64,000 nucleotides of DNA from Actinacidiphila epipremni (GTDB lineage Bacteria > Actinomycetota > Actinomycetes > Streptomycetales > Streptomycetaceae). Positions 2,492-2,690 of the stretch are shown piece after piece (the stretch's first letter is position 1; every line of letters starts with the position of its first letter). The DNA lies in NCBI RefSeq assembly GCF_012034175.1, contig NZ_JAATEJ010000007.1:1-64000 (forward strand), read 5' to 3'. The notes beneath the pieces were generated by a model. The model was given only the letters and a program-made list of their open reading frames with translations, was not told the DNA's origin and made no database searches. The position numbers were made by a program, and so were the translations under genes.

Positions 2492-2651
2492 GCCGCCGCT
2501 CGCCGCACCGCCCGGCCACGGTCCGGGTCGTCAGGTGCCGGTTCGACTCCGGCCCGCCGCTCTTCCTCGTGCGGCGGTAGTTCAATGGCAGAACGCGACG
2601 ACATGAGAAGTGAACCGTGCGCCATCGGGTGCGAGCAGGTACATCGGCGGC
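2492..2651 (+). ncRNA. Circularly permuted tRNA-Gly-like RNA (candidate)
   Basis: The 3' half of a tRNA precedes its 5' half. In order: possible anticodon-stem 3' strand 2527-2532; variable AGGT 2533-2536; T-arm GCCGG-TTCGACT-CCGGC 2537-2553; acceptor 3' strand CCGCCGC 2554-2560 with discriminator T at 2561; 9-base linker 2562-2570; acceptor 5' strand GCGGCGG 2571-2577; TA; D-arm GTTC-AATGGCA-GAAC 2580-2594; GACGAC 2597-2602, which pairs back to 2527-2532. The acceptor strands match over 7 bp. The hallmark bases T8, A14, G18G19, TTC and A58 are present, and a 15/48 Levitt pair (A2585/T2536) is possible. U73 with a G1-C72/C2-G71 acceptor points to glycine identity. The flanks also pair: CACGGT 2517-2522 with ACCGTG 2614-2619, GGC 2514-2516 with GCC 2621-2623, GCTCGC 2498-2503 with GCGAGC 2631-2636, and GCCGCC 2492-2497 with GGCGGC 2646-2651. 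No canonical anticodon loop with U33 can be read. The true 5' and 3' ends are unknown. Confidence 0.65.
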
Positions 2652-2656
2652 ATCCA

Positions 2657-2690
2657 GGGACCCGGAGGATGGACAAAACCTCCGGGTCCC
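2657..2690 (+). terminator. 12-bp hairpin downstream of the permuted tRNA-like RNA
   Basis: Perfect stem GGGACCCGGAGG (2657-2668) / CCTCCGGGTCCC (2679-2690) around a 10-base A-rich loop. It sits just after the tRNA-like fold and about 110 bases before the methyltransferase start. It is best read as the terminator of an independent RNA transcript. Confidence 0.7.

Follow-up and report, generated by a model that had tools for sequence, protein, structure and literature searches.

Bacterial Y RNAs of the YrlA type mimic transfer RNA (tRNA) in a circularly permuted arrangement, in which a T-arm, an acceptor hairpin and a D-arm follow each other on a basal stem and an anticodon is absent, and their genes, which also occur in phages, adjoin the gene of a dedicated protein, Ro60 (TROVE). 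The same features characterize an RNA encoded in a stretch of 64,000 nucleotides (nt) from Actinacidiphila epipremni (contig NZ_JAATEJ010000007.1, positions 1 to 64,000 of the forward strand, hereafter the window), where the adjacent gene codes for a protein of the family DUF7873. Since this RNA resembles Y RNAs but travels with a different protein, the locus has the appearance of a new RNA-protein particle, and we propose, with a probability of about 0.68, that DUF7873 and the RNA would form a Ro60-independent, Y-RNA-like ribonucleoprotein with DUF7873 in the place of Ro60. The permuted topology as such is already known from YrlA, whose identical order of arms defines it as a familiar kind of tRNA mimicry; what is new is the partner gene, the arrangement with two arms and the breadth of hosts. 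Unlike YrlA, the DUF7873-linked RNA often carries two tRNA-like arms per molecule and contains its own core motifs and a terminal GG(A/C)YA loop. Under this proposal, tRNA mimicry of the Y-RNA type would no longer be confined to Ro60 systems but include phages with hosts from several phyla and about half of the sampled Streptomycetales genomes. The proposal also provides DUF7873, a family whose function was so far unassigned, with a candidate RNA partner that can be tested.

The relationship to YrlA is manifested in searches with the Rfam models at relaxed thresholds, where the body of the window RNA matches YrlA (RF02553) over its full length with 31.1 bits. DUF7873-linked RNAs generally reach 28–38 bits with this model, and Ro60-linked RNAs from the genus score little higher, at 36–42 bits. 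Neither ARAGORN nor Rfam at curated cut-offs called anything at the element. An original prediction, made from the letters of the window, had described permuted tRNA genes in bacteria as extremely rare and did not recognize that YrlA provides a precedent for this topology. Two further systems share aspects of this organization. The permuted tRNA genes of red and green algae and of Thermofilum (PMC3978253, PMC3218864) similarly place the 3' half ahead of the 5' half, whereas the window RNA lacks an anticodon arm, its termini run into outer helices and it is not a decoding tRNA. Two-piece (permuted) transfer-messenger RNA (tmRNA) also combines a permuted tRNA-like end with a segment between the acceptor strands, but the window RNA differs by a canonical 4-base-pair D-stem and an acceptor whose third pair is not G-U, and the corresponding model (RF04321) did not match in the window.

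The permuted tRNA body is found at positions 2527–2602 of the plus strand. It starts with the 3' strand of the basal stem (GTCGTC, 2527–2532), located at the place of an anticodon stem, and continues with the T-arm (GCCGG-TTCGACT-CCGGC, 2537–2553, with the T-stem formed by 2537–2541 and 2549–2553), which was found by a rule-based detector of permuted tRNAs, by covariation and in the consensus structure described below. This is followed by the acceptor 3' strand CCGCCGC with the discriminator T (2554–2561, U 2561 in the RNA), a spacer of 9 nt (CTTCCTCGT, 2562–2570), the acceptor 5' strand GCGGCGG (2571–2577), which pairs with the preceding strand, U8, A9 and the D-arm (GTTC-AATGGCA-GAAC, 2578–2594, with the D-stem formed by 2580–2583 and 2591–2594) and finally by the 5' strand of the 6-base-pair basal stem (GACGAC, 2597–2602). 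Instead of leading into an anticodon arm, the basal stem is prolonged by outer helices, with 5' strands at 2492–2526 and 3' strands at 2603–2656, as seen in both the minimum-energy fold and the consensus structure, and a terminal hairpin follows at 2657–2690, whose loop (GGACA) is of a GG(A/C)YA type also recovered in relatives. In the minimum-energy fold computed without constraints (–144.6 kcal/mol, z –4.0, equalled by 0/200 shuffles), the T-stem, the acceptor, the D-stem, the basal stem, the terminal hairpin and three outer helices are all formed. The detector selected the same site and had no match in 20 mononucleotide-shuffled 64-kb sequences; its only other match in the window, on the minus strand, is a tandem pair of tRNA-Val genes.

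The body is embedded in a larger RNA of about 300 nt (approximately 2374–2695). Its 5' part probably includes a leader hairpin (2374–2395), which starts 12 nt past the stop codon of the DUF7873 gene and has an equivalent in many relatives. Next come the 5' strand of a closing helix (GGAGC, 2404–2408), which in the minimum-energy fold pairs with GCTCC at 2691–2695 and whose motifs GGAGCG and CGCTCC are found again in many relatives, a leader repeat (AAAGCTGAAGCTGAAGCT, 2411–2428) that pairs with the core motif, a short hairpin (2430–2458) and the conserved core (CTCAGACTCTCGCTCCAGGCTCAGCA, 2463–2488) defined by the alignment. The element that had been predicted at 2492–2690 thus exists, with its T-arm and acceptor 3' strand 9 nt ahead of the acceptor 5' strand and D-arm, its further helices outside the tRNA body and the strong hairpin that follows, and unconstrained folding, detector and covariation agree on it. 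The RNA is, however, larger than this range, and relatives contain a second permuted arm upstream.

Among 35 genomes from the genus, BLAST identified 22 strong homologues of the RNA. Among relatives, the acceptor GCGGCGG/CCGCCGC is changed to GGCGCGG/CTGCGCC and the basal stem GACGAC/GTCGTC to GTCGAT/ATCGAC with pairing being kept in both cases. Applied to 32 relatives with no input structure, RNAalifold returned the T-stem, acceptor, D-stem, three outer helices and terminal hairpin, with compensatory double changes at 33/49 pairs. In a set of 38 diverse elements, two-sided changes were found at all 22 of the 22 proposed pairs, and the covariation score of 0.73 (0.21 in shuffles) was reached by 0/500 shuffles, while the basal stem, evaluated in a fixed register, was paired in only 49% of cells. 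As the T-stem and D-stem served as search anchors and the set omits loci whose anchors had joined wrong arms, the 100% pairing of these two stems is partly a consequence of the selection. The acceptor, which had no role in anchoring, pairs at 7/7 positions in 151 of 168 unique elements, compared to 6.7% with swapped partners, despite occurring in 94 distinct sequence versions. The covariation that had been suggested as a check of the prediction is therefore present.

The same data bear on whether the locus is a scar left by a deletion in a tandem of two ordinary tRNA genes, a possibility that the prediction itself had named for tandem tRNA-Gly genes. Tandem tRNAs do yield false permuted matches, and our covariance model R1 assigns such pairs up to about 53 bits, for which reason R1 matches below about 60 bits were counted only beside DUF7873 or TROVE genes. 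Still, conservation with double compensatory changes extends to phages whose hosts belong to several phyla, and the outer helices and core are conserved, whereas tandem tRNAs give no such helices. With the acceptor pairing, the covariation and the RNAalifold results, we regard a deletion scar as refuted and assign it next to no probability. The designation as tRNA-Gly gene did not hold, since acceptor and base 73 (A 48%, U 32%, G 18%, C 1%) vary freely and an anticodon loop with U33 is missing. The alternative that had been offered alongside, a tRNA mimic rather than a decoding tRNA, is supported.

The gene of the probable protein partner (DUF7873, PF25283, Pfam E-value 6e-118) is found at 1619–2362 on the plus strand, with a start that, judged from relatives, is probably the GTG at 1628, and its AlphaFold model has a predicted local distance difference test score of 92. 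Since Streptomyces plasmids and Arthrobacter phages also contained a similar RNA adjacent to DUF7873, we searched from the protein side and gathered 53 viral-contig loci, 80 Streptomycetaceae loci and 73 phage records with hosts in several phyla. In 131 of the 132 loci examined, the RNA immediately follows the DUF7873 gene, which confirms the linkage that the prediction had proposed to check. These loci range from Streptomycetaceae, Nonomuraea and plasmids to phages of Arthrobacter, Gordonia, Rhodococcus, Rhizobium, Vibrio, Klebsiella and Pseudanabaena. With the acceptor ignored, T-arm and D-arm anchors were found within 620 nt downstream of DUF7873 in 124/132 loci, and the remaining ones were recovered by the detector or a covariance model except for L053, the sole locus where anchor search, detector and covariance model gave no convincing tRNA-like arm. 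Downstream of DUF7873, the core motifs YGCTCYA (part of the conserved core), ATCRAYYG and CTYAARYG show 7- to 40-fold enrichment; CTYAARYG is placed in the 3' part of the outer helices of many relatives but is absent there from the window. The terminal hairpin has a GG(A/C)YA loop in 77/124 loci. Within the genus, the RNA is present beside DUF7873 in all 23 genomes carrying the gene, and none of the 12 genomes without DUF7873 gave a strong BLAST match to it. The gene itself is found in 139 of 294 Streptomycetales genomes (about half), but in only 7 of 396 genomes sampled across the phylum.

In most relatives, another permuted arm of tRNA-like form (arm 1), with the acceptor GCCGGGG/YCCCGGC and an A at base 73, is located just upstream of the arm of the window type. 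Arm 1 has been lost from the window genome and those closest to it, which contain a plain hairpin instead, as do many one-arm Streptomyces; in the window RNA, the hairpin at 2430–2458 occupies its place. The replacement of arm 1 by a plain hairpin in many species is as expected of a modular arm. The minimum-energy fold of one two-arm relative (L006) was only weakly better than that of shuffles (z –1.6). Across loci, the RNA has a length of about 300–420 nt and one or two tRNA-like arms.

In light of the shared module, we considered whether the RNA might be an ordinary Ro60 Y RNA that chances to adjoin DUF7873, which would amount to an unrecognized partner swap. The tRNA-like module is identical in kind in Ro60-linked RNAs, but core and flanks differ, and Ro60 is missing from 15/18 virus records with DUF7873 and from several genomes of the genus that carry the RNA. 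We thus consider this explanation very improbable. The TROVE (Ro60) gene of the window genome resides on another contig (L213, G000:C46:11500-16265, minus strand) and is preceded by two permuted tRNA modules resembling Y RNAs, which have GCGAAGCGCAG flanks in common. This flank, which is present in most loci holding the Ro60 gene of the genus and which we used as proxy for the Ro60-binding stem rather than as a test of binding, had no match in the window. The predominant absence of Ro60 from the virus records and the presence of distinct Y RNAs at the Ro60 locus of the window genome point to a separate, Ro60-independent system, and the occurrence of both systems in one genome permits their direct comparison. 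In Rhizobium phage RHph_TM30 (L187), DUF7873 and a TROVE gene are about 6 kb apart, and Y-RNA-like modules are located upstream of the TROVE gene. On one viral contig (L054:5127-5574), the DUF7873 RNA is followed at a distance of 1.1 kb by several permuted-tRNA-like matches and a Ro60-type flank motif, and the two systems may there lie side by side.

In the proposed Y-RNA-like particle, the conserved core and the terminal hairpin would bind DUF7873, and one or two tRNA-like arms would project from the bound part. These arms retain the tRNA elbow formed by T-loop and D-loop and the 7-base-pair acceptor but have neither anticodon nor fixed identity, for which reason the most likely binders would be general tRNA-handling factors that accept any tRNA, such as processing, modification, decay or tRNA-targeting enzymes, which would either be tethered to DUF7873 or sequestered. 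The variation of base 73 between A, U, G and C argues against dedicated aminoacylation. During infection by phages, the particle would target the metabolism of tRNA or RNA; Streptomycetes retain a copy of the system. If the arms indeed capture tRNA-handling enzymes, this may partly explain how tRNA-rich phages manage the decay of host tRNA. Expression of the RNA as well as the binding, tethering and function of the ribonucleoprotein are inferred. Several observations weigh against the proposal: the RNA stays below the curated YrlA cut-off of 69 bits, a fold search with the DUF7873 model against PDB and BFVD gave no match at E ≤ 0.001, so that DUF7873 is a putative RNA binder by its genomic linkage, and the conserved 3' neighbour could instead act in cis as part of the DUF7873 mRNA. 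The best alignment in VIA-align, to TolC (Z 7.3 at a root-mean-square deviation of 13.6 Å), is not meaningful. DUF7873 has no PHROGs family, and literature searches, which did not cover bioRxiv preprints, returned no paper on DUF7873 and nothing relevant on permuted tRNAs in Streptomyces or phages. RtcB showed no link with DUF7873 and co-occurs in 3/18 virus records.

The frequent location of phage DUF7873 genes within tRNA clusters would also fit a decoy, in which the RNA titrates a factor of host defence or of RNA decay that binds the tRNA elbow or acceptor and DUF7873 acts as stabilizer. Mimics without anticodon would occupy elbow binders, and the tRNA-like domain of YrlA has been suggested to possibly inhibit an anticodon nuclease (PMC7790460). 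Conversely, the missing anticodon stem-loop precludes a role as direct substrate of such nucleases and the system is kept in about half of the Streptomycetales chromosomes, leaving the decoy as a possible but doubtful explanation.

Returning to the acceptor, its spacer varies between 3 and 120 nt in relatives, yet irrespective of length C74 (90%), C(–3) (87%) and a purine at –2 (about 90%) are conserved, which is perhaps a processing signal. Such unconstrained length would be compatible with an acceptor-open RNA of two or three pieces, where RNase P and 3' processing cut the acceptor loop or loops and the CCA ends are held by pairing as in two-piece tmRNA, perhaps being aminoacylated. CCA directly follows base 73 in 29/76 viral elements, and with C74 in about 90% of cases the arm shares the 3'-end habit of ordinary phage tRNA genes (C74 40/40, CCA 14/40; Rhizobium phage tRNAs 12/12). 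However, many arms are closed by loops of 3–5 nt (CGT, CTCGA), which are poor processing substrates, CCA is also seen in Ro60-linked Y RNAs, and a base 73 that can be any of the four nucleotides provides no constant aminoacyl identity. An acceptor-open RNA is therefore unlikely. We are similarly sceptical, and slightly more so, about a widespread phage-borne, Ro60-independent ribonucleoprotein in which DUF7873 displays a two-headed tRNA mimic with matured CCA ends to capture or present tRNA-handling enzymes. With respect to tmRNA in the phage records, Pseudanabaena phage PA-SR01 contains a weak match to the permuted form (31.9 bits, cut-off 47; L178:5763-5942) apart from its DUF7873 RNA, and the tRNA cluster of Gordonia phage Phendrix includes a tmRNA (89 bits; L175:1072-1600).
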